From Gammaproteobacteria bacterium (GTDB lineage Bacteria; Pseudomonadota; Gammaproteobacteria; Pseudomonadales; Porticoccaceae): a DNA stretch of 64,000 nucleotides. The notes under the pieces are model-generated. The model saw only the letters and a list, made by a program, of their open reading frames with translations, ran no database searches and had not been told where the DNA came from. Made by a program: the position numbers and the translations under genes. Every line of letters starts with the position of its first letter. Position 1 is the stretch's first letter. The DNA is taken from contig JAGPUW010000018.1 in the NCBI GenBank assembly GCA_018069465.1, positions 1 through 64,000 of the forward strand, given 5' to 3'. This document shows positions 539 through 19,300 of this stretch, piece after piece.

Positions 539-856
539 TTAACCATAAATGCCGAACGCTATCAATAAAGGCAGGGAAGTAAGAAAAATGGCAACACATA
601 ATACAAGCGCCCTCAAACCGCGATACCCCACAGGAACTGTTATCAAGCCAAGTTGCATAGGTTTATTAAAAATGTACTCAACAAAAACGGAGGCGCCGAC
701 AAGTACAGACAGTATAGGGATCAACATCTTTCCACTTGAGCCATACCCTTCAAAGCCGCCCCAAAACATAGTCGAAAGTGATCCACCACAAAGTAAAAAA
801 CCAAGAAAAAGCAAAACGATTTTTGCAGTCTTTTTTTGCACCTTATGCTTTACCAC
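539..856 (-). CDS. Small membrane protein, candidate immunity protein to the Rhs C-terminal domain
   Basis: A 105-residue protein with three predicted membrane segments, at about residues 11-30, 44-62 and 82-102. I recognise no family. The start is a GTG at 856 that overlaps the end of the Rhs gene (GTGGTAA), so translation of the two is probably coupled. A small gene placed immediately after a polymorphic Rhs C-terminus is the usual location of the cognate immunity gene, and it lies before an orphan Rhs fragment. The DNA from here through the Rhs tip looks richer in A+T than the Rhs core, as expected of an exchangeable tip module. The immunity role is inferred from position only. If the toxin acts on membranes, a membrane immunity protein would fit. 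Confidence 0.6.
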   Translation of the reverse strand: MVKHKVQKKTAKIVLLFLGFLLCGGSLSTMFWGGFEGYGSSGKMLIPILSVLVGASVFVEYIFNKPMQLGLITVPVGYRGLRALVLCVAIFLTSLPLLIAFGIYG

Positions 857-3800
857 CCTTCAGGCTTACCAGCTGAAACAGAACCCTTTTCCGACACTCT
901 GTTTGCCATATTGGATAAGGATACAGGAGTTACTGCAAGCGCTGATCCTGCCGCTACAGCGGATTCTGTGAGTTCTAATGCCACCTGTACCTTTTTCAGC
1001 AGGATGGATACAGATTTTTCTATAGCTAACGATGCGAATCCAGTCTTCCCATTTTGAGATGAATCCAAGCCCATGGAAAGAATCGTGAGCCCTGTTGCCG
1101 CTGCACCTATATAAGGGGCCAACGGGCCTGAAATAGGAGTCGCAATTGTTAAAGCATCACCGAAAGCTGCTGACGCATCTGCATATTCCTTTCGACCTGC
1201 CGCTTCAGAGGCTCTTTTGGTTACATAGTAATTGCCGTAAGGCCCATTTCCATAACCTGCATATAATCCACTAGGATCCACCAACATAACCGGATTCCCC
1301 CCCACATAGGCATAGAGGTTAATCCCCCCTGCCATGCCAATCGGGTCTTCACTGATAAAGCGACCTATCTCGGCATCGTAGTACCGTGCCCGCATGTAGT
1401 AAAGATCGCTGTCTTGGGCTTCGGTCATGACCCCGTATTGGCCGACGTAGGTAAAGGGCTGTGCGATCTGTTCTTGTTTGGCCATCAGTTGGCCATAGGG
1501 GTCGTAGGCGTATTTATTGACGACGTTTTGGTTAATGTCGGTGATGGCGACGGTATGCCCAGTGGCATCGTGGTGATAAACATAAAGCTGATTGGTCTGT
1601 GCATCCACAAAGGCCATTAATCCTAAGCCGTGGATGTAGTAGCGTGTAATGGTGCCACTGCTATTGGCTTCGGCGAGCAGGTTGCCTGCTGCATCGTAGA
1701 TGTATTGGGTGCTTATGCCGTTTCTGGTGGCACTGAGTCTGTTACCGACACCATCATATTGATAGCTATTGCTTTGCCCGTTGCTGTTGTAGCCGGTCAG
1801 GCGATGGGCACCATCGAAAATATAGCTATTGCTGGTGCTTGCGCCGGTAACGGTTTGGGTTTGTCCTTCGTTGTCATAGCTGAAGTTGATGGCTTCATTG
1901 GTGACTGCGGAGACCAGACGGTTTTTCTGGGCATTAAAACTTTGGCTGTGTGTGGCATTAATCAGTGTTTCAGGCAGGATGGGTTCGTTACTGATGGTGG
2001 CCTGAATGCGGTTGCCATTGGCATCGAGGGTGAAGCTGTAATCAGCCAGTAGTTGGCCACCGCTTTGATGGTGGGCAAGGTTGGTTAATCGGTCGGCATT
2101 GTCATAGTCGTAGGTGGTATAGCTGCCGTTGAAGTTGTCGACTTGAGTCAACCGGCTGGTGGCATCGTACGTGGTGCTGGCGGTTTTATTGAGCCAGTCA
2201 ATACTAATGCTGCCGACACGGTCGAGGGTATCGTAACTGTAGGAAACGGTTTTCCCATCGGGGTAGGTGATTTGTGTGAGGTTACTGACCTCGTCATAGC
2301 TGTATTGCACTTGATGACCGAGGGGGTCGGTGTGGCTGGTGAGCCGGTCTAGGACATCATAGGTATTTGAAGTGATGCCCAGTGGCCCTGTCATGCTACT
2401 TAAACGATCACGATTCAGGTCGTAATCAAAATCAACGCTAAAGCCGGAGACGGCGGGATGACTGGCCGTGGCGGCTCTTGCCGGGTAGCTAATCACATTC
2501 AACTTTTGGCTGGCGGTATAGGTGGCGCTGTAAGTGTCGCCGTTGCGGTCGGTTTGGCTGACCAGCTGCCCCAGAGCGTTGTAGCTCATGGTGGCGGTTT
2601 TATTGAGAGGATCCGTACGGCTGGTGATCAAACCGCGGTTATCATGGCTGAAGCTGGTAACTGCACCGGCCTGATCGGTGAGGCTAAGCAGGCGGCCAAT
2701 GCTGTCATAGCGGGTAAGCACGGCGGGATGGCTGCCGGTTTGACTGCTGGAGGGGAAGCCCTGACTGTCGTAGCTGTAGGTGCTTGTGGTGGCGCGGGGA
2801 TCTGTGGTGGTGGCAACCAGTCCATCGGCACGATAGCTTACGGTGGCTTCGTTATTCAATGCATCCCGTGCGGCGGTGCTGTGGTGCTCGGCATCAAAGT
2901 CGGTTTCGCTGCTATGGCCCAAGGCATCGGTGGCCTGGGTCAAACGATGCTGTGCATCGTAATTAAAACTTGTGAGCTGATTTAAAGGGTCGCGGGCTTC
3001 GATAAGGTTGTGATGATTATCGTAGACCAGAGTGCTGGTGCGGCCCTGAGTATCGGTAAAGGCGATGCCATGACCCTGGCCGTCATATTGGGTGGCCGTG
3101 CGGTGACCGAGGGCATCTTCTACACCGATGGCCCGCGTATTGTGATCAAAATAATAGGTCAGGCGATCGCCATCGGGCTTTTCTTCACTGGAGGATAAAC
3201 CCGTGTAGTGCAATTTGTAGGTGGCACTGCCTGTTTCCCGTGGTGCGACTTGTTGTACTACGCGATCAAAATCGTCGTAGGTGTTATCAACAATCATGGT
3301 GTTTTCAGGGTCAGTGACCGTGAGCATTCGACTCAAACTGTCGTAGCCGTATTGCCAGAGGGCATTTTCCAGGCCGGTGACGCTGGTTAAGGTATCGCCG
3401 CTATAGCCGTAGGTCAGCGTTCGCCCCGTTGAGTCGCTGACGGAGCTGAGCTGAGTACCACTGTAATTGAGGGTCAGCGTGCGACCGTAGCTGTCGGTGA
3501 CCTGGCTGAGTTGTTCACCGCTGTAGCTAAAGCTGAGGGTATTGCCGTCGATGTCGCTGATAGAGGCAATGGCATTATTGGCATTGAAGCTGAGTACCGT
3601 GCCAAAGCGCTGGCGCAGCTCAAAGGTGTTATCGCCTAAACGCAGCAGCTCGGCGCTAATCCCTGCGGGCGAGACAAAGCGGCCATCGGGCAGTTCTTTA
3701 AAGGTTAAAGCCTGGCTCCCCAAATGCAGGGTGACAGATTTATTGAGCAGTTGATCGGTGGCCCAGTCGGCGATCAGGGCGGCCACGGCCCAGTTTTCTA

Positions 3801-6800
3801 GCGCGGGTTGCGCGGGGGCCATCAAGTGCCGGGCGGCGTGGGCGGCGACCAGCAGCGGCAGCGCTTCAAAGGGGGTCTTGGTGCCCAGGGCCGATCCCAC
3901 ATCGCTGTGGATGGCGAGATGCAGATCATAGTTGTGGGTCCAGCCCTGCCCCAGACCCGCGCTGTTTTGGCCGACCTGCTGGCTGTTGTAGCTGCGACTG
4001 AAGCTTAAGCCCCGAGGGCCAGTACCGCCGAGGGCGAGATCCGTCATATTGGATAAAAAGGCACCGCTGCCGAGGTCGACGGGGTCGAGGGCGTGGACTT
4101 GCGCTACGGTCTGACTGGGCGTGTTTTCAGACCGAGATTCATTGCTAGTAACGCTCGGGGACACCGGCCCTGAGCTTGTACCCAACCCGCCATTCAATCC
4201 ACCGCCAATTATCATGCCGAGGCTGCGACTGCTGCCCGATACGAGATAATCCACATAGCCTTTGCCCGACCATTGATTGAGGCTCACCGCACCGTTTTCC
4301 GGGAGGATTAAAGTGTGCCCGGCATTCACCGCCGCCTGAAAGTTGGCCTTATCGCCCGCGCTGTAGTTGACCAGTTGGCCCTGCACGCTGGCGTAGTTGC
4401 CACTGTTGGCGAGGAAGAGCCGAGCGCCATTCTGGTTGTTGAGGGCAAAAATCTTGACGGTGGATACGGCGGCCTTATCTGCGCCCTGGGTTTGCTCCAG
4501 CACACTGTGCTCCATGGCGCTGGCAATAAGGCCGCTGGCCGGGAAAGAGCCCTCTTTGGCAGCGACGATGCGGGCGGAGGAGCTGACGTACTGGGCTTTG
4601 ACATCAACGTAGTAGCCTGCATTCTGCCCGGCGATACCAAAACGGTGGTGGCGAATGCCGCGCACCCCGCTCAGAGCCGCGAGCAAGTCATCGTTGAGCT
4701 GGGTTTGCTGCAACCAGGTCTGGCCGATGATATTGAGGGTTTCAGAGACCATTGCGGGGTCGTCCTCGGCCCTGCCTTCCAGGCTCATGCGACTGAGCAG
4801 GCGCTGGCGCTCGGCCAACAAGGTGCTGTGCTTATCACCACCAAAGGCGGAGGCCAGGACAAAGCTACCACCGCGATCCAGCTTAAAGGTCGTGGTTTGA
4901 TCGGCAAAGGCGCCACCGTTGGCAGCGTAGGGATGGTTGATGCTCAAGCTTAGGTCATTCAAATTGCCCGAGGGAGTGCCCTCGCTAACACTGAGCACAT
5001 CATCAATATAAATTTCGGCGACCCGATCAGCTTCAACCACGCCGCTCAAGTCGACGCTTTGTACACCGATAGAGCTGCCGTTGTAGCTGTAGTCGAAGGT
5101 CAACACGGCGTTTTTACGCCCCGCCGTTTGGCCAAGGCCGGTCAATTTAACACTGACATTAACAGAGCCACCGTTGGCAGGAATGCTCTGCGTACCCGCA
5201 CCACTGACAAAGGCAAAGGCGCTGGCATCGGCACCACTGAGGGTGCTGGTGATTTGGATGACAACAGTATTGGGATTATCCGGGTTCCAGGCAAAGGTCG
5301 GACCATCCCCACCAATAGCGACCGAGCCAAAATCGCTGGCACCCGCAGGCAGGGGGTCGATCACCACATTGTCCCCGGCATAGCGAATGCTCAGTTTGCG
5401 CCCGGCAATGTCCGGTATGTCGTAGAGGGCATCAATGCCGCCGTGTACCAGGTGCACCGTATGCACATAGGTGCTGGGCACAGTCGCCCAGGCGGCAAAA
5501 GTGGGGGCTACGGGCAATGGCAGCACCGTGGGTAATAGCGTGCTGTTATCAGGGATAATGCTATAGCCGCCGATCACCTCTTCGACCCGGGCGTTGGGGT
5601 AGTTCGCCTTGAGGTAGCTTTGAAAGGTGTTGGTCAGGGTCGATAGATAGGCCCCAAGTGCGCCCTCATTGAGGTTGGCAATGGAATCTGCTGTGACACT
5701 ACCACCGGCAGCGGCGAGCAAGCTGCCCTCGTCAAAGCCCATGGCGCTATCGAGATCAAGGGTGGGCGATGTCGTCGATAGTTTAAAGGCCGGATCCAGT
5801 GACACAACATTGGCGTTGATCGTCGCCTCTACCCACACATGATCAAACTCAATGCGGTTATTACTGTACCAGGCGACGGGCACGCCACCGTTGGCAAAAG
5901 TATTGACGATCAGCTGGGCATCGGCCTCCACACCCAACCAGTCTGCCAATTCTTGTAAGGCCTGGGGGTCGGTGGGCGAGACCGTAGCCAGGCCGTAGCG
6001 AAAGTTCGCCGTGTAGCCCGCCGCGCGCAATAATTCGATTAACAGGGCGGCCTGATCAAAGTCATTACCGGCGCGCTCGTGCAAGGTTAAATAAGGGCCT
6101 TTTAAAGCGCCGTAATAGGGGACGTATTCAAAATGGTTACGCACATATTGGTAAATGCGTCGCGGATCATTTTCCAGAGCTTCAGCCAATGCGCTGTAAT
6201 CGGATGCGGTGGCGAAGGCCGATTGTGCCGAAAACTGTAAGTCGGCATTCTGGTCGCCACCCACATCAGGTTCGCCAAGGATCTGCCGGGCCTCCTCCGC
6301 AGACACCGGCTCCGCTTCACTCTGATACCAGCCGGGGTCGGGCGCTGTTATCGCGCGCTGGCGCAGTGCTTTCTTTTTCTGGCCTGGCGCTGCGCCGCTG
6401 TGGCGTACGGCACTGGGCATCACCAAATTGGCAATATCCGGTGCAGCAACGGCGTTATCAACCAGGCCAGCGCACAGGCCGAGCACCAGGAACAAAACAA
6501 GAGGGCTGGAAGATCGAACCTTAGGTTTACCCAGCCAGCCCAGAGCACCGGCCAACAAGGCCAGCGCCCAGAGCGGTAAAAAGGGGATTTCTTCGCCGTT
6601 ATCATCGCTGCTGTTATTGTTAACGACGGGGTCAGTGCCGTTGAAAAACTCATCCACCGCAGTGACACCATCGCCATCGACATCCGAATTGGCATCGAGT
6701 GGATTCAGTGGATCGAGGCCATAGTACAGCTCCCAGGTATCGGGCATTTGGTCGTTGTCGTCGTCTGGGTCGGCAAAATCTGCCAGCAAATCGTCGTCGC

Positions 6801-7080
6801 TATCGGGGCTATTGGACACGGTTTGCACAGTGATATTACTCACCTCGTCGTAGACGTAGGCGATGCTCGGGCCGTCACCACGGCTGACTGTTTGTAGGCG
6901 ATTCAAGTCGTCGTAACTGTAGTCGATCGTTACCTGGGCTGAAGCCGCGAGAGAAAGGCACAGGCCCAAAGCCAGTAACACACGCTGCACGATGGCCCTG
7001 GCGGGCACACTTAGCGAGACATCCTGTCCCGGCGCTCGATTTGCGAGTTCAAGCCGCAATCTTGTTTTTACCCAGCCCAT
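850..7080 (-). CDS. Giant secreted Rhs/YD-repeat protein with N-terminal exosortase-type module, transglutaminase-like domain and variable C-terminus
   Basis: About 2076 residues. The chosen start is ATG 7080, 7 nt after a strong GGGGAG; a GTG sits one codon earlier. Domains in order: a signal peptide ending near AASAQ (about residue 50); a single YD repeat (53-90); Asp-rich calcium-type repeats (94-152); a hydrophobic segment IPFLPLWALALLAGALGWLG followed by basic residues (166-190); a second signal-like segment ending AVAAPD (194-214); and a transglutaminase-like domain (307-432) with Asp where the catalytic Cys is expected. An Rhs N-core follows near 1000, with YD repeats from about 1175 to 1895. 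The conserved core end RARYYDAEIGRFISEDPIG comes next, then a tip of about 138 residues after DPSGLY. Rhs proteins encapsulate and deliver C-terminal toxins. The tip here is alanine-rich and hydrophobic and matches no toxin I recognise. The overlapping downstream membrane gene may be its antidote, and the exosortase genes lie just upstream. Confidence 0.9.
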   Translation of the reverse strand: MGWVKTRLRLELANRAPGQDVSLSVPARAIVQRVLLALGLCLSLAASAQVTIDYSYDDLNRLQTVSRGDGPSIAYVYDEVSNITVQTVSNSPDSDDDLLADFADPDDDNDQMPDTWELYYGLDPLNPLDANSDVDGDGVTAVDEFFNGTDPVVNNNSSDDNGEEIPFLPLWALALLAGALGWLGKPKVRSSSPLVLFLVLGLCAGLVDNAVAAPDIANLVMPSAVRHSGAAPGQKKKALRQRAITAPDPGWYQSEAEPVSAEEARQILGEPDVGGDQNADLQFSAQSAFATASDYSALAEALENDPRRIYQYVRNHFEYVPYYGALKGPYLTLHERAGNDFDQAALLIELLRAAGYTANFRYGLATVSPTDPQALQELADWLGVEADAQLIVNTFANGGVPVAWYSNNRIEFDHVWVEATINANVVSLDPAFKLSTTSPTLDLDSAMGFDEGSLLAAAGGSVTADSIANLNEGALGAYLSTLTNTFQSYLKANYPNARVEEVIGGYSIIPDNSTLLPTVLPLPVAPTFAAWATVPSTYVHTVHLVHGGIDALYDIPDIAGRKLSIRYAGDNVVIDPLPAGASDFGSVAIGGDGPTFAWNPDNPNTVVIQITSTLSGADASAFAFVSGAGTQSIPANGGSVNVSVKLTGLGQTAGRKNAVLTFDYSYNGSSIGVQSVDLSGVVEADRVAEIYIDDVLSVSEGTPSGNLNDLSLSINHPYAANGGAFADQTTTFKLDRGGSFVLASAFGGDKHSTLLAERQRLLSRMSLEGRAEDDPAMVSETLNIIGQTWLQQTQLNDDLLAALSGVRGIRHHRFGIAGQNAGYYVDVKAQYVSSSARIVAAKEGSFPASGLIASAMEHSVLEQTQGADKAAVSTVKIFALNNQNGARLFLANSGNYASVQGQLVNYSAGDKANFQAAVNAGHTLILPENGAVSLNQWSGKGYVDYLVSGSSRSLGMIIGGGLNGGLGTSSGPVSPSVTSNESRSENTPSQTVAQVHALDPVDLGSGAFLSNMTDLALGGTGPRGLSFSRSYNSQQVGQNSAGLGQGWTHNYDLHLAIHSDVGSALGTKTPFEALPLLVAAHAARHLMAPAQPALENWAVAALIADWATDQLLNKSVTLHLGSQALTFKELPDGRFVSPAGISAELLRLGDNTFELRQRFGTVLSFNANNAIASISDIDGNTLSFSYSGEQLSQVTDSYGRTLTLNYSGTQLSSVSDSTGRTLTYGYSGDTLTSVTGLENALWQYGYDSLSRMLTVTDPENTMIVDNTYDDFDRVVQQVAPRETGSATYKLHYTGLSSSEEKPDGDRLTYYFDHNTRAIGVEDALGHRTATQYDGQGHGIAFTDTQGRTSTLVYDNHHNLIEARDPLNQLTSFNYDAQHRLTQATDALGHSSETDFDAEHHSTAARDALNNEATVSYRADGLVATTTDPRATTSTYSYDSQGFPSSSQTGSHPAVLTRYDSIGRLLSLTDQAGAVTSFSHDNRGLITSRTDPLNKTATMSYNALGQLVSQTDRNGDTYSATYTASQKLNVISYPARAATASHPAVSGFSVDFDYDLNRDRLSSMTGPLGITSNTYDVLDRLTSHTDPLGHQVQYSYDEVSNLTQITYPDGKTVSYSYDTLDRVGSISIDWLNKTASTTYDATSRLTQVDNFNGSYTTYDYDNADRLTNLAHHQSGGQLLADYSFTLDANGNRIQATISNEPILPETLINATHSQSFNAQKNRLVSAVTNEAINFSYDNEGQTQTVTGASTSNSYIFDGAHRLTGYNSNGQSNSYQYDGVGNRLSATRNGISTQYIYDAAGNLLAEANSSGTITRYYIHGLGLMAFVDAQTNQLYVYHHDATGHTVAITDINQNVVNKYAYDPYGQLMAKQEQIAQPFTYVGQYGVMTEAQDSDLYYMRARYYDAEIGRFISEDPIGMAGGINLYAYVGGNPVMLVDPSGLYAGYGNGPYGNYYVTKRASEAAGRKEYADASAAFGDALTIATPISGPLAPYIGAAATGLTILSMGLDSSQNGKTGFASLAIEKSVSILLKKVQVALELTESAVAAGSALAVTPVSLSNMANRVSEKGSVSAGKPEGW

Positions 7081-7213
7081 CACTTAACTCCCCATCCTAG
7101 AGAAAACACTTCCCTGTTAGCGCCAATCTGCTGACAAGGTATTATCAGGCAGCATGTAACCAGGGCTGATTATGGACAGCGCTTGTGGCAAAACGGTTGA
7201 AGTGAAGTGACGC

Positions 7214-7816
7214 TTAGATGACGAATTTATGAATCGGGAATTTGTTAAGGCTTACTTGCACACTGCGCACCAGACCGGCCCCCAACAGGGCCAGCGCCAG
7301 TCGCCCACCACTGTTCATAAAGTGCATACTTTGCACCAGTATTGAGGTGTTCAATCGAGCGGGGTCACGCGAGTAGAGCACCATGTCTTCAAGGGCACCG
7401 GCCAGTACTAGCGGCGTATCGAGGACTTCAATCAGCAACAGCACAGGCAGCGACAGCACGCAAAGCAGTACGTATTCCCAGTTCCGTTTGACGGGCCACA
7501 AAGGAATACTACTCAACAGCAATATTAGCGGCTGCAGGGCATGGCCTAGTAAGGTAGAACTCGATACGGGAATACCATCCGCCACGCCCTTCCCCGCCAA
7601 GTTGCGACGACCATCGGTGAGCGCATCGACTTTAACGAAAAGCTGCCCGCGCTCGCTATCAATGGTCATCGCCTCAACCGTAAAATAGGGTGTCAGGCAC
7701 TCAAATGACCAGGCGTAAGTCGGTAGCAGCGCCTTGACGAAAACATCGCCCCAGACCCAGGCCATGCTGTTGAGTGCAACAAAAACCAGTAGCGCACACA
7801 GCAAACGGGCTTTCAA
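7214..7816 (-). CDS. Exosortase H-associated membrane protein
   Basis: About 200 residues, with an N-terminal membrane anchor, a soluble central part and two or three further hydrophobic segments: LLCALLVFVALNSMAWVWG near the start, LQPLILLLSSIPLWPV in the middle and LLCVLSLPVLLLIEVL after it. I placed the start at TTG 7816, which has a strong GGAGG 7 nt upstream. A longer reading frame to 7900 would overlap the end of the exosortase gene and lacks such a site. The stop of the exosortase gene is 19 nt upstream, so the two genes form an operon. A membrane protein of this size regularly accompanies XrtH-type exosortases; its exact role is not established. It lies between the exosortase and the Rhs gene that carries an exosortase-like sorting motif, so all three may work together. 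Confidence 0.75.
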   Translation of the reverse strand: MKARLLCALLVFVALNSMAWVWGDVFVKALLPTYAWSFECLTPYFTVEAMTIDSERGQLFVKVDALTDGRRNLAGKGVADGIPVSSSTLLGHALQPLILLLSSIPLWPVKRNWEYVLLCVLSLPVLLLIEVLDTPLVLAGALEDMVLYSRDPARLNTSILVQSMHFMNSGGRLALALLGAGLVRSVQVSLNKFPIHKFVI

Positions 7817-7835
7817 GGTGAGGCCTCCACCGTAT

Positions 7836-8354
7836 TTATACTTGCGACGCCGACTCAACCCAGCGGATCCACCACAGATAAAACCCCGCCGCCACGGCAA
7901 TAATCAAGGTTGGTGCAATATAGCTGTGCAAGGCGTTAAACAAGGCTCGATTGTTTTGCAGTGCAAAGTACAACGCAACAATACGCGCCTGATTAGTGAC
8001 AAAAATGAGCGCCGTCGCCAGCACCATGCCCAGCAGTTTGTGGCGCCAGCGACTTTTGTAGGCCGCTATCGCCGCGATAATCAGGAACAGAGATTCCGTC
8101 CCCTCACAACCATTGAGCACAGACAGCGTTGAGTTACTGGAAAGCAGTTGATGTCCCACTGCTCTGACCTGCAGCTCGGGGGCAAGCTGTCTGATTAAAT
8201 AGGCGGCGGGCTTCACGGTCGCATAATCGATAACCACTGTTTCGACAGGGCCTCCGCTCGCTTGCTCGTAAGACCATTGCAGCAACAGGAAAAACCCGGC
8301 AAAAAGAACCAACAGCCGTAACGGCGCTGCTGCTGAGGCTTGAGACAAGGACAT
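7836..8354 (-). CDS. xrtH: Exosortase, XrtH-like transpeptidase
   Basis: A 172-residue polytopic membrane protein with the exosortase active-site pattern: Cys83 in NGCEGTESLF, Arg124 in TNQARIVALYF and His143 in ALHSYIAPT, each next to a membrane segment. Exosortases cleave C-terminal sorting signals of exported proteins in the inner membrane and are thought to transfer them to a surface anchor. Type H works on proteins ending in an IPTLxxWG-like motif. The small size, without the extra domains of EpsI-type exosortases, and the adjacent associated membrane protein point to type H. I chose ATG 8354 over a TTG at 8372; neither has a clear ribosome-binding site. The only candidate sorting signal I see in the window is the internal IPFLPLW segment of the downstream Rhs protein. 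Other substrates may be elsewhere in the genome. Confidence 0.85.
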   Translation of the reverse strand: MSLSQASAAAPLRLLVLFAGFFLLLQWSYEQASGGPVETVVIDYATVKPAAYLIRQLAPELQVRAVGHQLLSSNSTLSVLNGCEGTESLFLIIAAIAAYKSRWRHKLLGMVLATALIFVTNQARIVALYFALQNNRALFNALHSYIAPTLIIAVAAGFYLWWIRWVESASQV

Positions 8355-8648
8355 AAAAGAGACACCCGACAAAATAAAAAGGAGTTCACTAAAGGCGCGA
8401 GTATAGGCAGCCCTTCTTTAAAGATTTAAGTCAGATGAAAACAAAGCAATAACAACTCAGACCAGACACTGCAGACCAGAGCCCCAACAGTAGGTGAACG
8501 CGATTGGCCTTGCCCGCGACAGGCAGGCAAGCTTTCACGCAAGCCCATGCTAGGGTAGTATCACAGCGCAAATAATTCGAATGGCGGCCAGTGCGTGCTT
8601 GTCCCTTTGCAATAAGTGCTCGTCCCTTTTAAAGACAAGGATAGACTT

Positions 8649-10320: not shown

Positions 10321-11259
10321 ATGGCTCGCTTTATTTTAATGCGCTTGTTGCAGGCGATACCGGTACTGCTGGTGGTGATTACGGTGACGTTTTTTCTCGT
10401 GCGCCTCGCCCCCGGCGGGCCTTTTAGCGCCGAAAAAGCCGTGCCGCCGGAGGTCTTAAAAGCCCTCGAAGCCCGCTACCATCTCGACCAGCCGGTGATA
10501 AACCAGTACTTCTCCTACCTCGGCGATCTGGCCCACGGCGACTTCGGCCCCTCGTTTAAATACCCCGGCCGCTCGGTCAATGAGATGATTGCCGCAGGGT
10601 TGCCCGCCACAGCCGAGCTGGGCCTGTACGCCATGTGCTTTGCGTTATTGATCGGCGCCAGCGCCGGGGTTATCGCCGCGCTAAAACCCAATAGCGCACA
10701 GGACTACATCCCCATGTCCACCGCTATGCTGGGTATTTGCCTGCCCTCATTTTTACTCGGCCCGCTGTTGATGCTGGTGTTTGGAGTGTGGCTGGAGTGG
10801 GTGCCGGTGTCGGGCTGGGGCGATATTCCCGGTGACAAAATTTTACCGGCGCTGACCCTCGCCTCCGGTTACACAGCCTATATCGCCCGCCTGTCACGGG
10901 GCGGCATGCTCGAAGTGATGTCCCAGGACTATATTCGCACCGCCCGCGCCAAGGGCCTGCCAGAGTGGAAGGTGGTGCTCAAACACGGCCTGCGCGGTGG
11001 CATGATCCCGGTCATCGCCTTTATCGGCCCCGCCTTTGCGGGCTTGCTCAGTGGCTCTTTTGTGGTCGAAACTATTTTTCAAATCCCCGGCCTCGGGCGC
11101 TTTTATGTACAGGCCGCCTTTAACCGCGACTACACGATGATTATGGGCACCACGGTCTTGTTTGCGACGCTGATTATTCTCTTTAATCTGCTCGCCGATA
11201 TTGTCGCCGTCTGGCTCAATCCGCGTCTGCGCGATCTCTACCGCAGTGGAGGCGCATAA
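10321..11259 (+). CDS. oppB: Oligopeptide ABC transporter permease, OppB type
   Basis: A 312-residue inner-membrane permease with about six membrane segments. It opens with MARFILMRLLQAIPVLLVV, the standard beginning of OppB/DppB proteins, and carries the EAA-loop sequence DYIRTARAKGLPEWKVVLKH near residue 200, which contacts the ATPase. It pairs with the next gene, starting 2 nt after this one, to form the transmembrane channel. The tight spacing (7 nt from oppA, 2 nt to oppC) supports a single transcript. Nothing appears missing or truncated compared with the family's usual length of about 306-336 residues. Confidence 0.94.
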   Translation: MARFILMRLLQAIPVLLVVITVTFFLVRLAPGGPFSAEKAVPPEVLKALEARYHLDQPVINQYFSYLGDLAHGDFGPSFKYPGRSVNEMIAAGLPATAELGLYAMCFALLIGASAGVIAALKPNSAQDYIPMSTAMLGICLPSFLLGPLLMLVFGVWLEWVPVSGWGDIPGDKILPALTLASGYTAYIARLSRGGMLEVMSQDYIRTARAKGLPEWKVVLKHGLRGGMIPVIAFIGPAFAGLLSGSFVVETIFQIPGLGRFYVQAAFNRDYTMIMGTTVLFATLIILFNLLADIVAVWLNPRLRDLYRSGGA

Positions 11260-11261
11260 AG

Positions 11262-12161
11262 ATGAACAGCACAGAGCTTAATAACAGCACCGATCAACAG
11301 GCGCCCGCCGAAAAAGGTAGCTCCCTGTGGCGCGATGCCTGGCACCGCCTGCAAAAGAACAAAATGGCCCTGCTCGGGCTGGGCGTCATGATCACGATGT
11401 GTATCGCCGCCCTGCTCACCCCGTGGATTACCGTCTACGCCTATGAAGAACAAAACCTCATGCTCGGTGCATCCCCACCCTCTGCCGAGCACTGGCTGGG
11501 CACCGACACCCTGGGCCGCGACCTGTTGACGCGCATCCTCTACGGCAGCCGCATCTCCCTGGCTGTGGGTTTTATTGCCACCGCAGTAGCCCTGCTGATC
11601 GGCGTGATTTACGGCACCATCGCCGGCTATATGGGTGGCAAAATTGATGCGGCAATGATGCGTCTGGTCGACATACTCTACGCCCTGCCCTTTATGATTT
11701 TTATTATTCTGTTAATGGTGATATTCGGGCGCAATATTTTGCTGCTGTTTCTCGCCATCGGCGCTGTTGAGTGGCTGACCATGGCCCGTATCGTGCGCGG
11801 GCAGGTGCAGTCACTGCGCCAGCAAGAGTTTGTCGAGGCCGCGGTGTCCATCGGACTCGGGCCGTGGGCGATTATCCGCCGCCACCTTATCCCCAACACA
11901 CTCGGCCCAGTCATCGTCTACACCACCTTGACCATTCCCAACGTGATGCTGCTAGAGTCTTTTTTAAGCTTTCTCGGTCTCGGCATTCAGCCACCGCAAA
12001 GCTCCTGGGGGCTGCTGATTTCCTACGGCGTCGAAACCATGGAGGAGTACCCCTGGCTACTGATCTTTCCCGGGCTGGCACTGTCGATTACGCTCTTCTC
12101 CCTCAACTTTCTCGGCGACGGTTTGCGCGATGCCCTCGACCCGCGCGCGGCCAGGGACTGA
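11262..12161 (+). CDS. oppC: Oligopeptide ABC transporter permease, OppC type
   Basis: A 299-residue inner-membrane permease. Its N-terminus has the OppC_N pattern (SSLWRDAWHRLQKNKMALLG), followed by WLGTDTLGRDLLTRILYGSR, which is conserved in OppC/DppC, and an EAA loop (QQEFVEAAVSIGLGPWAIIRRH) about two-thirds along. It dimerises with OppB. The stop codon is followed 6 nt later by the ATPase gene. The ribosome-binding site lies within the end of oppB, consistent with translational coupling in the operon. Confidence 0.94.
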   Translation: MNSTELNNSTDQQAPAEKGSSLWRDAWHRLQKNKMALLGLGVMITMCIAALLTPWITVYAYEEQNLMLGASPPSAEHWLGTDTLGRDLLTRILYGSRISLAVGFIATAVALLIGVIYGTIAGYMGGKIDAAMMRLVDILYALPFMIFIILLMVIFGRNILLLFLAIGAVEWLTMARIVRGQVQSLRQQEFVEAAVSIGLGPWAIIRRHLIPNTLGPVIVYTTLTIPNVMLLESFLSFLGLGIQPPQSSWGLLISYGVETMEEYPWLLIFPGLALSITLFSLNFLGDGLRDALDPRAARD

Positions 12162-12167
12162 GTAGTG

Positions 12168-13805
12168 ATGAGCGAAAACAAACAAGACAATATACTTAAA
12201 GTTAACAATCTATCTATTTGTTTTAAAACACGAAATGGATCGAGTAAAGCCGTTGCCGGGGTCAGCTTCGAGATCGCCCGTGGTGAAACACTGGCCATTG
12301 TTGGCGAGTCCGGCTCGGGTAAATCCGTCACCTGTTACAGCCTCTTAGGGCTAATTCCCCAACCCCCAGGTGTCATCGAAAGCGGTAGTGCTTTGTTCAA
12401 AATAAAGGGGCGAGAGTGCGACTTGTTACACAGTAACAAAGCCGTATTGCGCAGCTTGCTCGGCAATAAAATTGCGGTCATTTTTCAGGACCCAATGACC
12501 TGCCTCAACCCCTATTTAACGGTCGGCGAACAGCTGATAGAACCCTTGTGTCAGCACCAGAATATGGGCCGCAAGCAGGCCCGTGCGCGGGCCATTGAAC
12601 TGCTCGAAGAGGTCGGCATCAAAGAGGCAGCCTTGCGTTTTGGCAGCTACCCTCACGAATTTTCTGGCGGTATGCGCCAGCGAGTGATGATCGCCATGGC
12701 GCTGATCACCGAGCCCGAATTACTGATTGCCGATGAGCCCACTACGGCACTGGATGTCACCATTCAGGCGCAAATATTGGCCCTGCTGGATGACTTAAAA
12801 AAGCAACGCAATATCGCCCTTGTCTTCATCTCCCACGACCTCAGCGTGGTCGCCAATATTGCCGATCGAGTCGCGGTGATGCGCGGCGGAGAAATCGTCG
12901 AGACGGGCAGCACCGAGCAAATATTCAAACGGCCCCAGCACGCCTATACCCAACAACTCCTCGCCTCAGTGCCCAGCGGCCCCAAACCAGCACAGGCCTT
13001 TCAACCCAGCGGGGATGAGCGCCCGCTACTGGAAGTTGAACACCTGCAAACCGTTTTTGAACAGGGCAGTCGAGGCTTGTTCGCCCCCCGCCCGGCGCCG
13101 ACTATCGCCGTCAACGATGTGTCATTTGAGCTGCGCCGCCATGAAATTCTCGGCCTGGTCGGCGAATCCGGCTCCGGCAAATCGACACTGGGGCGCTCGG
13201 TGATTCAGCTGATTAAGCCGACAGCGGGCAGCGTGCGCCTCGATGGCCAAGAGCTGTGCCAGCTCAGCACCCGGCAACTGAAACCCCTGCGTCAGCGCAT
13301 GCAAATGATTTTTCAAGATCCCTACGCCTCGCTGAATCCACGCATGACAGTGTTCGACACCCTCGCCGAACCGCTGCTCTATCACCGCCTGGCCAAGCGT
13401 AAAACGGTCACGGCCCAGGTGTTAACGCTGATGGACGATGTTGGCCTCGCCCACAGCGACATTCGTAAATACCCCCACGAATTTTCCGGCGGCCAGCGCC
13501 AGCGTATCGCCATTGGCCGCGCCATCGCTACCAAGCCTGAATTGATTATTGCCGACGAGCCGGTATCGGCGCTGGATGTGACGATTCAGGCGCAAATCCT
13601 CGACTTAATACTGAGGCTTGTTGAGCGCCACAACTTAAGCATGCTGTTTATCTCCCACGACCTTTCGGTGGTCAGATATATTGCCGACCGCATACTGGTT
13701 ATGCACCAAGGGCAATTAATTGAGAGTGGTGACACTGAAGAACTGTGGGCTAATCCCCGCGAGAGTTATACCCAGCAGCTCTTTGCTGCTATTCCTCAAC
13801 TCTGA
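12168..13805 (+). CDS. Fused oligopeptide ABC transporter ATPase (OppD-OppF in one chain)
   Basis: About 545 residues with two complete ABC ATPase domains. The first (about residues 10-265) has Walker A GESGSGKS, signature FSGGMRQRV and Walker [13 protein letters not shown]. The second (about 285-540) has [18 protein letters not shown] and [12 protein letters not shown], and each half ends in an oligopeptide-type C-terminal extension. It corresponds to OppD followed by OppF in one polypeptide, as in the GsiA/YejF type. It energises import by the preceding permeases. ATG 12168 is chosen; a GTG is immediately in front of it. It is the last gene of the operon. The opening 60 bases are visibly richer in A+T than the rest of the operon. 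Confidence 0.94.
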
Positions 13806-13880
13806 GCGCTAAATAATAAAGGCAGGATGGACAGAGACAGGCAAGCGGTTACAATTGGCAATAGCAACAACATTTATCTT

Positions 13881-13960
13881 GTAGTTGATTTGCTAGCGTA
13901 GTTGATTTGCTAGCGTAATTGATTGGCTGGCGTAGTTGATTTGCCGATGTAGTTATTGGC
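13881..13960. repeat. 17-bp tandem repeat, four copies plus a partial
   Basis: The unit GTAGTTGATTTGCTAGC occurs twice exactly (13881-13897 and 13898-13914). Two diverged copies follow (13915-13931 and 13932-13948) and then a partial one (13949-13960). It lies between the fused Opp ATPase gene and a small unknown gene, immediately upstream of the latter. It could be a locus for strand slippage or a cluster of protein-binding sites. I see no known binding consensus. Confidence 0.9.
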
Positions 13961-13985
13961 TAAAAAAGTGGGATCAAGACAATTT

Positions 13986-14216
13986 ATGACTATTTATAAC
14001 AAGGCTGAACTCGACCAATTGCGGGTCGTGCGCAAGCGCATTAAAGAAGAGTTTGGCCGCGCGCCGACCCTCAACGCACCCAATTTACTGGAAGACATTC
14101 TCAACTACAGCAGCCGCTCAAAGGACGCCATCACCAAATCGCAGATTCGCCAGCTAATGGAAATCCTCGGCGAACCCTGGACTGAGCGCTTTATGGAATT
14201 ACATCAATTGTATTAA
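13986..14216 (+). CDS. Small conserved-looking protein of unknown function
   Basis: A 76-residue, soluble, mostly helical protein rich in Arg, Lys, Glu and Leu, beginning MTIYNKAELDQLRVVRKRI. It has no signal peptide and no Cys pairs. I recognise no family. ATG 13986 is chosen; a TTG at 13956 would extend it into the tandem repeat region. Its stop lies 4 nt from the stop of the convergent exonuclease gene, and its codon use looks like that of neighbouring genes, which supports it being real. It is preceded by the 17-bp tandem repeat array, which may affect its expression. Confidence 0.65.
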   Translation: MTIYNKAELDQLRVVRKRIKEEFGRAPTLNAPNLLEDILNYSSRSKDAITKSQIRQLMEILGEPWTERFMELHQLY

Positions 14217-14220
14217 GGAA

Positions 14221-14985
14221 CTACTCAGTCAAATCCAGCAATACTGGGCAGTGATCCGAGCCCATCACCTCATTGAGAATATCTGCGCCTTCAACCTTCG
14301 CCTGCAAGCTTTTTGACAGCAAAAAATAATCGATGCGCCAGCCAACATTATTAGCTCTGGCACCGGCGCGATAGCTCCACCAGCTGTATTTAACCTCCTC
14401 GGGATGCTGATCGCGAAAAGTATCCACAAAGCCCGCGGCGACAATATTGTCCAGCCCATCAATCTCCGCCTGGGTGTAGCCGGCACTTTTGTTGTAGTTG
14501 GGCTTGGGGCGCGCTAGGTCGATATCTTTGTGGGCGACATTCAAATCACCGCAGACCACCACCGGCTTCAGTGTTTCTAGCTGCTTTAAATAAGCGAGGA
14601 AGTCGGCGTCCCACTGCTGGCGATAGTCGAGCCGCTTCAAACCGTTACCGGAATTTGGCGTGTACACCGTGACCAGATAAAAGGCCTCAAACTCAGCGGC
14701 GATGACCCGGCCCTCCAAATCGTGCTCGGCAATGCCCATATCGTACTGCACTGACAAAGGCTCAACTTTCGACAATACCGCCGTGCCCGAATAACCTTTT
14801 TTCTCAGCAGAATTACTGTACAGGTGGTAGCCCTCAATCGTTGCCAGCGCCTCGACCACCTGCTCATCCTGGGCCTTGGTTTCTTGCAGGCAAAGCACAT
14901 CCGTCGCCATGTCCTGTAGCGCTTGAGCAAAATCTTTCTTCATGGCGGCTCGAATACCATTAACATTCCAGGAGACTAAACGCAT
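14221..14985 (-). CDS. xthA: Exodeoxyribonuclease III / AP endonuclease family
   Basis: A 254-residue DNA-repair nuclease of the exonuclease-endonuclease-phosphatase fold. It cleaves at abasic sites and removes 3' blocking groups in base-excision repair. Visible motifs are the N-terminal LVSWNVNGIRA, LQETKAQ (metal-binding Glu), YTPNSGNGLKRLDYR, VVCGDLNVAH, RIDYFLLS and the terminal GSDHCPVLLDL. The spacing and the NYNKSAGYTQAEI segment resemble the ExoA/APE1 branch more than E. coli ExoIII. The start at 14985 (MRLVSWN) is chosen because family members begin there; an upstream ATG at 15009 adds only eight poorly conserved residues. It is a single gene, convergent with the small unknown gene and downstream of the Wadjet operon. 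Confidence 0.93.
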   Translation of the reverse strand: MRLVSWNVNGIRAAMKKDFAQALQDMATDVLCLQETKAQDEQVVEALATIEGYHLYSNSAEKKGYSGTAVLSKVEPLSVQYDMGIAEHDLEGRVIAAEFEAFYLVTVYTPNSGNGLKRLDYRQQWDADFLAYLKQLETLKPVVVCGDLNVAHKDIDLARPKPNYNKSAGYTQAEIDGLDNIVAAGFVDTFRDQHPEEVKYSWWSYRAGARANNVGWRIDYFLLSKSLQAKVEGADILNEVMGSDHCPVLLDLTE

Positions 14986-15146
14986 CGACACTACATCCTC
15001 TAACATCACATTGAGTGGGTTTAAACAGTTTGCCTATGGTAAACCGAGGGCTCGACTTTCCAAACCCCTTTAAGCCCTGGCACAGACAAGGCTTCATTAA
15101 ATCGACACTTTGCAAACAGTGGCGCCGGGGCATTGGGGCCAACAGA

Positions 15147-16322
15147 TTAATCAGTGTGTAAATCGCCCATGCCGACCACTTCCTGATCGACAAACATCTT
15201 TGTCGAGCGCAACAGGGGTAAGAGAACATCATTCACATAGGCACAATGGCTTTGTCCGGGGTCCCGCTGGCGCTCTTTACCCGAGGCTTCACCACTGTGA
15301 CAAAGACCCTTCGAATGGTAACTCAACATCGCCCGATAACCCGGCTGCCAGGCCCTTATGTCCGTAAAATTCTGCCCCAGTGCAGCGAGTATCGCCATGC
15401 CAGAATAATCCAGATCACCCCAGAAATAGCAGGGGATGGCCTTGCTCCCCTGATTCAACCACCAGCGCTGAAAAGCCAGAAATTGACCCTCATCGTAGGG
15501 CTGCACATGACTAAACTGAGTGGCCCCCCGCTGACGAATACGACTAGAGGCACCGCGGAAACCCGCACTATTAATCAGAGTCATATTATTGAGCAGAGGA
15601 CTCTGACTCTGCGCCGCGACCAGTTGTAAAAACGTATCCTGATTTTCAACAAACAGGACTTGCCGGCTTGTTGCGGCCATAGCGACATGAATCAAGAGAG
15701 GCCGCGTTATTAAATACATATCAGCATTGGGCAATAAACGCCGCACCAGATCTTCCCGCGCATCGAGAAACTTTGAATCAGCCCAAAAGCACTTAGCCGA
15801 CAATGCTCGCAAGGTAATGGGCTCAAGTGGCAACTTGGCGGCCTGCACAAAACCTTTGACCACCTGCTCCGCTGTTTGCCCCTGACGCTGTATTGGCTTG
15901 GCGAGCAAGGCCGCACCACCGGCAATAAAGTACTGCGCGTTGCTCTCCACCGCTCTTTTCCAATTAGCGGCGTAGGACGCCTCCCGAGGGCGTTGCAGCC
16001 AATGCCGTAGCAGAGCCTCCCCCCCAGGCTCAAGAACTAAACGCGCTTTTTCATACACCTCGATACCGGGTCGTGGGCGCGCCATTTGAATCGAAAAAAT
16101 TGCGTATTCATCTTCATCAGCCAGATCGACTATCAAACTCCAATAATATTCAGTGTTTTCACTACTGAAATCAAAGAGTGGCGGCAGGGTTTTACGGTTC
16201 ACTTGCAGAGGCCGCACGCGCCCCTTGTCGATATTTGTAAGTAGTGTATTCAACAAAGCCAAAACAAAAGGCTCATGTAGATAAGCAGGCGGCGCACGAA
16301 AACTCGGCTCAGGCATTGCCAT
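15147..16322 (-). CDS. jetD: Wadjet system nuclease subunit JetD (MksG), Toprim fold
   Basis: 391 residues, the last gene of the four-gene JetABCD operon. JetD is the topoisomerase VI-like nuclease that cuts plasmid DNA after the JetABC condensin complex has extruded and bent it. The N-terminal half corresponds to the arm domain. The C-terminal half carries the Toprim signature: a glutamate in LFVENQDTFLQL (Glu226) and the Asp-x-Asp motif in YFWGDLDYSGM (residues 302-308), with a further acidic DQE near 379. The metal-binding residues are therefore intact and the nuclease is probably active. The start is 43 nt after the stop of jetC. No terminator is obvious in the 161 bp before the exonuclease gene. 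Confidence 0.9.
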   Translation of the reverse strand: MAMPEPSFRAPPAYLHEPFVLALLNTLLTNIDKGRVRPLQVNRKTLPPLFDFSSENTEYYWSLIVDLADEDEYAIFSIQMARPRPGIEVYEKARLVLEPGGEALLRHWLQRPREASYAANWKRAVESNAQYFIAGGAALLAKPIQRQGQTAEQVVKGFVQAAKLPLEPITLRALSAKCFWADSKFLDAREDLVRRLLPNADMYLITRPLLIHVAMAATSRQVLFVENQDTFLQLVAAQSQSPLLNNMTLINSAGFRGASSRIRQRGATQFSHVQPYDEGQFLAFQRWWLNQGSKAIPCYFWGDLDYSGMAILAALGQNFTDIRAWQPGYRAMLSYHSKGLCHSGEASGKERQRDPGQSHCAYVNDVLLPLLRSTKMFVDQEVVGMGDLHTD

Positions 16323-16365
16323 AGCCGAACGCGAACGACAGAACAGATTTACTAAAGCTCATGAC

Positions 16366-19300
16366 CTACAGATCATCCATAAAATCCAACATGGCCTGGT
16401 TGCGAATGGTTTTTCGATGCCGTGCCCACAGGGCTTTAATTTTTTCTTGATTGCACACCTTGCGGTCAACCAGCACATGGGTATCAAGCTCACCCACTTT
16501 TTCAGTAGCCGGGCATTTACTGAACACCACCTGGTTGGAAATTAAATCTAAAAATGGCCCCGATTTACTGGTGGGCATAATAAAAATCAACTGCAGGCCC
16601 AGGGCCTCGGTGAGATAGTGGATGACCTCCCGAGAGCGAGCTTCATCCATTTTCGAAAATGCTTCGTCGACCAATACCATGCGACAGTGCGAACTTCCCT
16701 CGTTATAACGAAAGGCCGAGGTTACCGCCGCGGAGCGAATAATATAGGCCGGTGTTTCCAGCTGCCCACCGGAGCCGGTGCCGTATTTGCTGAGGGCAAT
16801 GGGCTCTTTATTTTCCGGTTTTTTATAAATCTCATAACGCCGATAGAGACGATAATCACTGATGCGGCGCAGTTCACGCAAGGCTGCCTGTTCATCCTTG
16901 TCGAGTAACATAGCGACGAGCTTGTCTCTCACCAAACAAGATTGCGGGTTTAAGTCGGCATCGAACAGGGAGTTGCCATCACCCAGGTTGGGCAAGTTGA
17001 CCACCTCTTTAAAAAAGCGCCAGTACTCTTTAAATTCTGGCACCCATTGCCAGTCAAAATAGAAGCGCTCGCGGTCGGAGCCAAACACGTGGTGTTCGAG
17101 CTCTTTATTGAGCTCTTCCAAGACCCGCTTGCCATCATTGATGGCCTGATAAATGGAGTGGCAAAGATTGCTGACAAACGCGGTGTTAAAGCTATCGCGC
17201 AAGGTCGCCAGCTTTTCGGCTTTACCCACCAGGACATTATTTTTTAAGGCATTGTGAACGGCCTGTAGTTCACCGGCCATCTTGGCAATGCTTTGAAAGT
17301 ACTCGGCCGCGTGTTGCTCGCCATGGCCAATGGCGTAAATAATATTATGGGCGAGGGTCGCCATTTGATTGTGCTGCATAATGGCCTGGTACAGCGCCCT
17401 GTCATGCTGGTCGAGCTGCTTACAATAAGCGCTATTTTCCTCGACAAAGCTAAAATCGCCCTTCGCAGCACGGGCCTTTACTTCGGCCTCTTGCAGGGCC
17501 GCTTCACTATCGAACTCGGGATAATAGCTAGCGATACCCGTTACCCTGGCTTCACGCTCATCTCTATCTTCTTGCAGCCTTTCGAGTTCGGCCACGAAGG
17601 TGTCGATGGACACCGTAAGATTGCTCTTTTTCTCCTCTAAAGCACCGAGCCGACTATTCAGTTCACTGCCACCTTTATCAAGCGCATCGAACTCTAGCTG
17701 CACAGCTTGCATGCGCGTTTCAAGTTCTTCGAAGTCGCTTAAATCGAGGTTTTGTAGCTGTTCTTCACTGTGTTGTCGGGCGCGATACAGCGTCAACATT
17801 TCTGTTAACAAGTCAGCGCACTGCAGCGCTTTTATGCTTTCTATTAGCTCGTACAGTCGCGCCGCCTGGCGGTATTCATCCTCTTGTTGTTGGCGCTGGT
17901 GTTGTAGATCACTCAGCTCTTGGCGCTTCGCCTCTAATGCCCGCTGGCGCGCACCTTGGCCGAACACCAGGTCGGCGTCATTGAGATCACAGCGGAACAT
18001 GGCGTAGTTACCCGAACCCAGCCCGGTGCGGGTGACGCCCCGGCGGGTTCGTCGCAAGCCCTCTTCGTCCTGCACTCGCAAGACAGAACCGTAGGAGGCC
18101 TGCAAATAATATTCGACAATTTTATGATCAAACTCCATCAACTCAACAATGGAGTCTTGTGCCAAGGTGATTTTAGCGGCGTCGCGCTGGGCTTTTTCAC
18201 CCTGAATAACCCGGGCATTATTGCGACCGCCCTTCATGCCCCGCACCACGCGAATGGCCTCGGCCTCATATTCGGGCTCGACAATAATGGCAAAGCGCGC
18301 GCCACCCATATATCCCTCGATGGCCATTTGCCACTTCGGGTCAATAATTTCTACAAAGTCACAGAGCACTGCGGCACGGGCATCGGGGCATTGGCTATGG
18401 ATGGCCTTAAGAGCGGCTTCGACATGGGGCGGGTAATTAATTTTATTGTGTTCGAGGCGCTGAATTTCTACTTGCTTGCGCTCGTGGCGCTCCTTACTTT
18501 GACTCAGCTGGCGCTGCCTGTCATTACTCAGTGTTAGCACCTGGTCTCGGATGCTGCGCGGGCCGCTACTGCGCTCGGCACTGTGCAGAGCCAGAGCCAG
18601 GTCACTGTGATGCCGGTCGAGTTGTTTGACCTGTTCGAGCTTGTGCTCAAGCGCGCCAATGCCGACCCAGTCTTTGGTCATTAACTGTGGCATGTCGAGC
18701 CCGGAGTCCTCGGGGCCCTGTAATAAATTAGTGATCAGCAGGTTCAGCGCCTTGCTCTCCAGCGCCGGAATCTCCACCCCGAGGGAGCTGCTTTTTAAAC
18801 TCTGTTGCAGCTGGCGTATGGCTTGATAATTATGTGCAAATTGCGGCTCCTGCTCGAGTAAAGATCGGGCGCTAGCGACAAGGTTCTGCTCACAAGCTTC
18901 AAGCTCTTGTTCAAGTTGGTCTTTATCGCGCAGTGCGGCGATGCCACGGCGCTGGGCCGCGAGGTCGACTAATTGACTATTGGTGGCGCGCTTAAGCTCG
19001 GCATTGTCCTGTATGTCCCGCTCTGTTTGCCCAATGGCCTCAACGTTGAGGCGCTGCTGGTCTTTAATACCGAGATAGCCCTGCTGCTTGACCCACACCT
19101 GGCGGCTGAGCTCGCAGTACTGCCCCACACAATGGTCAAGCCAGTTGGCAATATAGGTGGCCGCATGGCTCTGCGCGACGTCGAGGTTTTCAAGCACCCG
19201 CTGTATCGCCCGTGTTTCTTCGTCCATGCTATGAATGGTTTTCATCAACTCTGAAACTTGACGAATATCTTCACTTAAATCTTTGGGTTCAAGAATTTCC

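Follow-up and report, generated by a model that had tools for sequence, protein, structure and literature searches.

Can an exosortase sorting signal act from within a protein, rather than from its end? The question is raised by the first 64,000 nt of contig JAGPUW010000018.1 (assembly GCA_018069465.1, a gammaproteobacterium of the Porticoccaceae; this whole stretch is referred to as the window), in which a long open reading frame (ORF) encoding an Rhs protein carries a sequence resembling such a signal near its N-terminus and lies downstream of genes for an exosortase and its associated protein. Loci are labelled L### and genomes G### throughout, with G000 denoting the window's own genome. 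Comparison with related loci shows the gene to be, at the level of sequence, a fusion of two neighbouring genes, since relatives carry the two halves as adjacent genes. The same comparison shows that neither the sorting signal nor a second signal-peptide-like segment has been lost from the fused form, one basic cluster being common to the two. We consider it likely (probability of roughly 0.7) that an exosortase-substrate gene and a transglutaminase/Rhs gene have been fused and that an XrtM-like exosortase and a signal peptidase split the resulting polyprotein, and we infer that the cutting would proceed in two steps, one for each enzyme.

An Exosortase Sorting Signal inside an Rhs Protein

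The reading frame (nt. 850–7083, minus strand) is open throughout its 2077 codons. Its transglutaminase-like domain is followed by YD repeats and then by an Rhs-associated core, which the TIGR03696 model recognizes with 86.8 bits (cut-off 32.5) and which places the product among the Rhs proteins. The segment EEIPFLPLWALALLAGALGWLGK, close to the N-terminus, displays all three parts of a sorting signal, namely motif, helix, and basic residues. The TIGR04174 model (IPTL_CTERM) matched residues 166–185 (IPFLPLWALALLAGALGWLG, or EEIPFLPLWALALLAGALGWLG if residues 164–185 are taken, followed by KPKVR at 186–190) and scored 14.6 bits over the full-length protein, 17.2 bits over its N-terminal piece (cut-off 20.5), and 21.0 bits in a six-frame search of the genome, where it was the sole match at E up to 10. 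The C-terminal location that is part of the definition of IPTL-CTERM proteins is absent, with 1892 residues following the signal.

We built a profile from terminal sorting signals, 15 in all, that came from 12 other genomes with a short exosortase-family gene (the window being excluded). The internal signal scored 28.3 bits against this profile, and the runner-up among 45 mechanically chosen window ORFs scored 7.8. When the profile was run on 1160 ORFs of the fetched stretches, the sequences that outscored the internal signal were either terminal signals, most of which had gone into the model, or truncated forms of the window ORF; those below it, down to about 13 bits, were also of sorting type. 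The genome itself supplies a terminal version of the signal, found at the end of a subtilase (NGEEIPFLPTWAFMVLAGIIIRGLIR; L224, nt. 535–1962, contig G000:C21) encoded on a different contig from the exosortase gene. Sixteen genomes were also scanned with a signal alignment of 12 rows. In the window's genome two signals emerged at E up to 1, namely this subtilase, which is itself in the model, and the internal Rhs signal (E = 6.9e-5), which is not. Subtilases with a terminal signal of this kind also occur in G101, G239, G318, and G693, and terminal IPFLPxW signals in G101, G239, G588, and the window's own genome.

The first-pass annotation, made from the DNA letters alone, had proposed this internal signal, together with a second signal-peptide-like segment immediately behind it at residues 194–214 and one YD repeat and calcium-type repeats ahead of it. 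The signal, the second segment, and the YD repeat (PF05593, residues 57–88, 22.2 bits, cut-off 22) were all borne out. The calcium-type repeats were visible by eye and gave a weak match to NF047639 (E = 2.7e-5), and the PF18884 model (TSP3_bac) found nothing in the window protein.

Fused and Split Relatives

Relatives were sought with an alignment of the transglutaminase region (A2), which returned 17 loci, of which 11 are close (49–64% identity); as the A2 scan sees only places fitting two short patterns, the 17 loci are not a census. A genome scan queried with the exosortase protein returned no relatives. Gene order was compared in the 11 close loci (three of which, L139, L140, and L141, are the same as L091, L092, and L093), leaving aside six distant ones (L149–L154, 26–35% identity), so that with the window the comparison set comprises 12 Rhs proteins from 11 genomes. 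Two of these proteins are fused, two are split with a sorting signal, six are split without one, one (L147) has no visible partner, and in one (L145) the Rhs gene starts 125 bases from the contig end.

The split arrangements with a signal, in Methylobacter sp. KS41 (L146, G691) and Methylocaldum sp. 14B (L148, G693), reproduce the window protein as two genes. An upstream small gene, encoding the YD and calcium-type repeats, ends in a terminal signal (VPAVPDLGLLIMALALALITARLTKKQGV in L146, VPAVPAEGLLLMAVALWRIAARLNQKNRGL in L148) and is followed after only 4 nt and 1 nt, respectively, by a gene encoding a signal peptide, the transglutaminase-like domain, and the Rhs part. The two halves that the first-pass annotation suggested seeking as separate genes thus exist, in support of its proposal that an exosortase substrate and a secreted Rhs protein have been fused. 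In the split loci lacking a signal, the partner ends in calcium-type repeats in L138 (dockerin models over cut-off) and in L142, L143, and L144 (by eye), and is lipoprotein-like in the two copies held by G424 (L093; L102 with L092), a genome in which we saw no short exosortase. To the eye, the second gene of the split cases opens with a stretch resembling a signal peptide (for L092, read on the overlapping contig L102). Because the ending of the partner is a sorting signal in some relatives and calcium-type repeats in others, while in yet others it starts with a lipobox, the small half is probably an anchor subunit of the Rhs protein.

The other fused protein with an internal signal, L091 (G685), comes from a host of a different family, and its far end is cut by the contig. 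Its linker contains ATG codons, and internal initiation of the Rhs half may therefore be conceivable there. The basic linker of the window protein holds no ATG, GTG, or TTG codon, and the first alternative start codon after the signal is a TTG within the second hydrophobic segment; the Rhs half would therefore not easily be started on its own.

The Exosortase and Its Co-Occurrence with the Signal

The exosortase and its associated membrane protein are encoded immediately upstream of the fused gene on the same strand, as the first-pass annotation had stated. Its label of XrtH did not hold: TIGR04300 (XrtM) is the best model for this enzyme with 102.7 bits, higher than the 62.3 bits of TIGR04177 (XrtH, cut-off 86), and we accordingly speak of an XrtM-like exosortase. 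Residues C89, R130, and H149 are invariant across nine aligned exosortase sequences, and we take them to be the active-site Cys, Arg, and His of the exosortase/archaeosortase family. The closest enzyme among those fetched, L049 (G398; 59.7% identity over 149 residues), also has the partner gene, and no Rhs relative was found within its 20-kb stretch (656 N included).

Co-occurrence of these Rhs proteins with exosortase genes, which the first-pass annotation had made a test of its proposal, is seen for the short form of the enzyme (an open frame no longer than 200 a.a, as found by the general exosortase model). The general family does not discriminate, as a longer member is present in all 11 genomes. 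Short exosortases are present in all four genomes with the signal (G000, G685, G691, and G693) and in one of the seven without it (G688, and not G684, G686, G687, G689, G690, or G692), giving a one-sided Fisher p of 0.015, or 0.040 (one in five) if G690 and G692, with no partner visible, are omitted; both values are only a guide because the test treats related genomes as independent. In G691 and G693 the short enzyme passes the XrtM cut-off (213.6 and 173.1 bits), has the partner gene, and lies 5.3 kb and 4.3 kb downstream of the Rhs ORF on the same strand. In three further loci (L037, L039, and L041), a more distant transglutaminase/Rhs gene is clustered with a short exosortase and with a CTERM gene of the IPxLPxW/IPxPxW type that stands on its own, and the transglutaminase gene of L041 starts 17 nt past the end of the CTERM gene. 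The short exosortase also serves other proteins, such as subtilases.

Other sorting-signal-ended proteins were seen by eye near short exosortases as well (L041, L040, L094, L034, and L049), with signals that we take to be VPLPA-like. A membrane protein of about 200–230 a.a resembling the associated protein of the window, for which no NCBIfam model matched at E up to 1, accompanies many short exosortases: a scan of 38 loci found 21 such ORFs, spread over 20 loci, of which 11 had contributed to the model. One of the stretches (L034, nt. 1999–2887) additionally holds a truncated 99-a.a exosortase that has its own partner gene. As an intact pair of exosortase and partner lies about 7 kb away, the truncated one may be the remnant of a second copy.

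Processing Model and Alternative Explanations

Under the two-cut reading, the N-terminus of the polyprotein would be exported via Sec, and the IPFLPLW helix would span the membrane with its basic end inside, before the second hydrophobic segment leads the chain back out. The XrtM-like exosortase would then cleave at the end of IPFLP and pass the small half to an envelope anchor, while signal peptidase I would cleave near AVA-A and release the Rhs half. The basic cluster would do double duty for the two signals, and the products would correspond to the two proteins of the relatives, made in a 1:1 ratio.

Several observations weigh against this reading. On the side of the enzyme, the XrtM score stays under that model's cut-off of 125 bits, and G398, which has the most similar exosortase, yielded no sorting signal at E up to 1 (genome 87% complete). 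G688 has a short exosortase, yet its Rhs partner is signal-less, a terminal signal lying on another protein, and in G685 the XrtM gene (128.0 bits) is on a contig other than that of L091. Only four (L037, L039, L041, and L059) of the 29 short-exosortase stretches drawn from the class and order held a transglutaminase/Rhs relative, some of the other 25 being short contigs, so that the exosortase has no general link with Rhs proteins. On the side of the substrate, the signal of L091 is weak (8.0 bits with our profile, E = 0.0146 in the 16-genome scan) and its second hydrophobic segment shallow (1.55). The second segment of the window protein is itself only weakly similar to the signal peptide of L138 taken alone (p = 0.0066 against shuffles, a score equalled by one unrelated window protein), and their homology leans mainly on position, directly before the start of the common domain at PDPGWYQ. 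Finally, in a tree of the 12 proteins (for five rows, which lacked the search motif, the first 1200 residues were taken), the window protein groups with L138 (85/87) and not with L091; as the two fused proteins are not sisters, the fusion would have been gained twice or later undone. The four signal-bearing proteins require four changes on this tree, which thus lends no support to the signal-bearing state having arisen only once.

Two alternatives accept the membrane topology and differ in the cuts. The two membrane-length segments flanking a short basic loop could form a hairpin that is never cut and holds both halves at the inner membrane; we regard this as unlikely, as the first segment resembles exosortase signals that are terminal elsewhere, both within this genome and in others, and the relatives encode two proteins. 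Cutting by the exosortase alone, with the second segment left in place to anchor the Rhs half by its N-terminus, would suit the weak similarity of this segment to a relative's signal peptide and the shallow segment of L091. We judge this outcome quite unlikely in view of the AVA-A site in the window protein and of the signal-peptide-like stretch, seen by eye, with which the same protein opens in L138, L146, L148, and L093.

Other explanations would take the signal or the fusion itself to be spurious. With the source genome available as a draft in 49 contigs, one might suspect that the fusion was created during assembly, or else that a stop codon was recently lost and the resulting read-through product has no function. 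As a homologue from another family (L091) and an unrelated Rhs protein (L059, below) share the arrangement, and as the basic linker of the window protein is devoid of an ATG, GTG, or TTG start, such an origin appears very improbable. That the signal is an ordinary transmembrane helix with a chance likeness to sorting signals might be argued from the TIGR04174 score, which is under the cut-off in the protein scan; the large lead of the internal signal over the other chosen window ORFs with an independent profile, and the association of the signal with short exosortases, make this the least credible explanation. The fusion of an exosortase substrate with a transglutaminase/Rhs protein, processed by both enzymes, remains our preferred reading.

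Internal Modules in Other Proteins

A comparable module is present in an Rhs protein unrelated to that of the window (L059 in G262, nt. 10414–17624, 1523 a.a), where DDEIPTLGEWGMILLGGVLLIVLARRSRTPGPAAWLLLALAGTVLLLTTPDARAGD begins at residue 1031, between YD repeats. Its gene is divergent from an adjacent short exosortase gene, and this internal signal is the sole signal of G262 at E up to 1. The ORFs following the gene resemble its later YD-repeat part, like spare Rhs ends.

When 398 genomes of the phylum were surveyed with a module alignment (A3), 47 of them contained matches at E up to 0.01, and 28 of 30 loci were inspected (all except L221 and the window's own), some matches lying outside these loci. 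No further internal module was found in the loci inspected, and the arrangement is therefore probably rare. Candidates that were rejected comprise plain C-terminal signals (L193, L195, L198, and L199) and an IPxLPxW-like stretch within a membrane protein that lacks a basic loop (L197). Internal helix pairs with a weak profile match and an incomplete motif were seen in L194, L196, and L206, and in the remaining inspected loci no signal was seen in the frames viewed. In an ORF of 1857 a.a from G367 the signal is terminal.

On balance we lean, without great confidence, towards a broader view in which some bacteria would make Rhs proteins and their anchors as polyproteins, to be split by an exosortase and signal peptidase at a shared helix–loop–signal-peptide module, an arrangement that would have arisen more than once (in the window/G677 lineage, and inside YD repeats in G262), with an anchor that is exchangeable between an exosortase signal, a lipobox, and calcium-repeat endings.

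Organization of the Locus

Features of the fused gene and its neighbours are collected in Table 1. The transglutaminase-like domain contains the motif GNDFDQA; the position expected for the catalytic Cys is occupied by Asp in all four aligned sequences, and the domain is therefore probably non-catalytic. Beyond the Rhs core, the tail of the window protein is 53% identical over 129 a.a to that of L142, and the 105-a.a membrane protein encoded after it is 40% identical to the 100-a.a product of the gene directly following the L142 Rhs gene. Tail and membrane protein are thus a candidate toxin-tail/immunity pair.

Table 1. Coordinates of the fused gene, its predicted parts, and adjacent genes in the window.
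Feature	Residues	Position (nt.)	Strand	Basis or remark
Candidate immunity partner, membrane protein, 105 a.a		539–856	-	Just after the Rhs tail
Fused ORF, 2077 a.a		850–7083	-	Comprises all parts from the first signal peptide and small YD/calcium-repeat half to the Rhs tail
Variable C-terminal part	From DPSGLY past the core	850–1278	-	Likeness to L142 tail
Rhs-associated core	1860–1940	1264–1506	-	TIGR03696
Transglutaminase-like domain	297–430	5794–6195	-	PF01841, 1.4e-7
Second signal-peptide-like segment with AVA-A, PLVLFLVLGLCAGLVDNAVAA	194–214	6442–6504	-	Hydrophobicity, alignment
Basic linker KPKVRSSS	186–193	6505–6528	-	Sorting-signal tail and n-region of second signal peptide
Internal exosortase sorting signal, EEIPFLPLWALALLAGALGWLGK	164–186	6526–6594	-	Profile searches
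Aspartate-rich calcium-type (TSP3-like) repeats	93–160	6604–6807	-	Aligns with TSP3 parts of L146/L148
YD-repeat part of small half	49–92	6808–6939	-	PF05593; alignment with separate small proteins
First signal peptide	About 27–48	6940–7005	-	Hydrophobic peak
Exosortase-associated membrane protein, 228 a.a		7214–7900	-	Relatives beside other short exosortases
XrtM-like exosortase, 178 a.a		7836–8372	-	TIGR04300 best; conserved Cys89, Arg130, His149

Relation to Known Systems and Significance

PEP-CTERM and sortase signals are described as a motif, a helix, and a basic cluster at the C-terminus (PMC3237569). An internal cut is already known for the archaeal protein HVO_0405, and the NCBIfam name midcut-by-XrtH implies one. 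HVO_0405 of Haloferax volcanii is reported to be a fusion of two independent genes with a central cleavage site and ArtA-dependent processing (PMC7157517). The window gene likewise unites two formerly separate genes around a tripartite signal, but differs in having a bacterial exosortase in place of the archaeon's ArtA, a second signal-peptide-like segment directly after the signal, and an Rhs half. The midcut-by-XrtH family (NF033207), with eight matches over cut-off in G015, offers an exosortase-type helix, a basic loop, a second hydrophobic segment, and a further domain (in four of the eight members, by eye); those four members measure 202–210 a.a, whereas the window module sits inside a 2077-a.a Rhs protein beside an XrtM-like enzyme, and membership is not claimed for the window protein, which scores 15.4 bits (cut-off 45).

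Among bacterial systems, XrtM/IPxLPxW (TIGR04300) provides the best enzyme model, although the score is under its cut-off and the window signal is internal. With the Rhs/YD-repeat polymorphic toxins the window protein shares YD repeats, an Rhs core, a variable tail, and a small adjoining membrane protein; it differs from them in its exosortase signal and in a transglutaminase-like domain that is probably non-catalytic, and its toxicity is only putative. A search for internal bacterial exosortase signals (XrtM, IPTL-CTERM, XrtH, and Rhs) found none in the literature covered, which mostly excludes subscription journals and does not imply absence from print. As far as this search reaches, what is new is the bacterial XrtM-like case with its embedded second signal peptide and Rhs half, as well as a set of naturally occurring split and fused genes whose distribution follows that of the enzyme.

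Processing at C-terminal signals is hard to see because a short tail alone is removed. If the proposed processing is true, one cut would divide a polypeptide whose length corresponds to roughly 220 kDa into two well-separated pieces. Bacterial exosortase activity would thereby become testable by blot, as HVO_0405 made possible for archaeosortase A (PMC7157517). The finding would also link a surface Rhs protein to a partner whose likely anchoring device varies among relatives, and would offer a testable reason why some XrtM genes adjoin Rhs genes.

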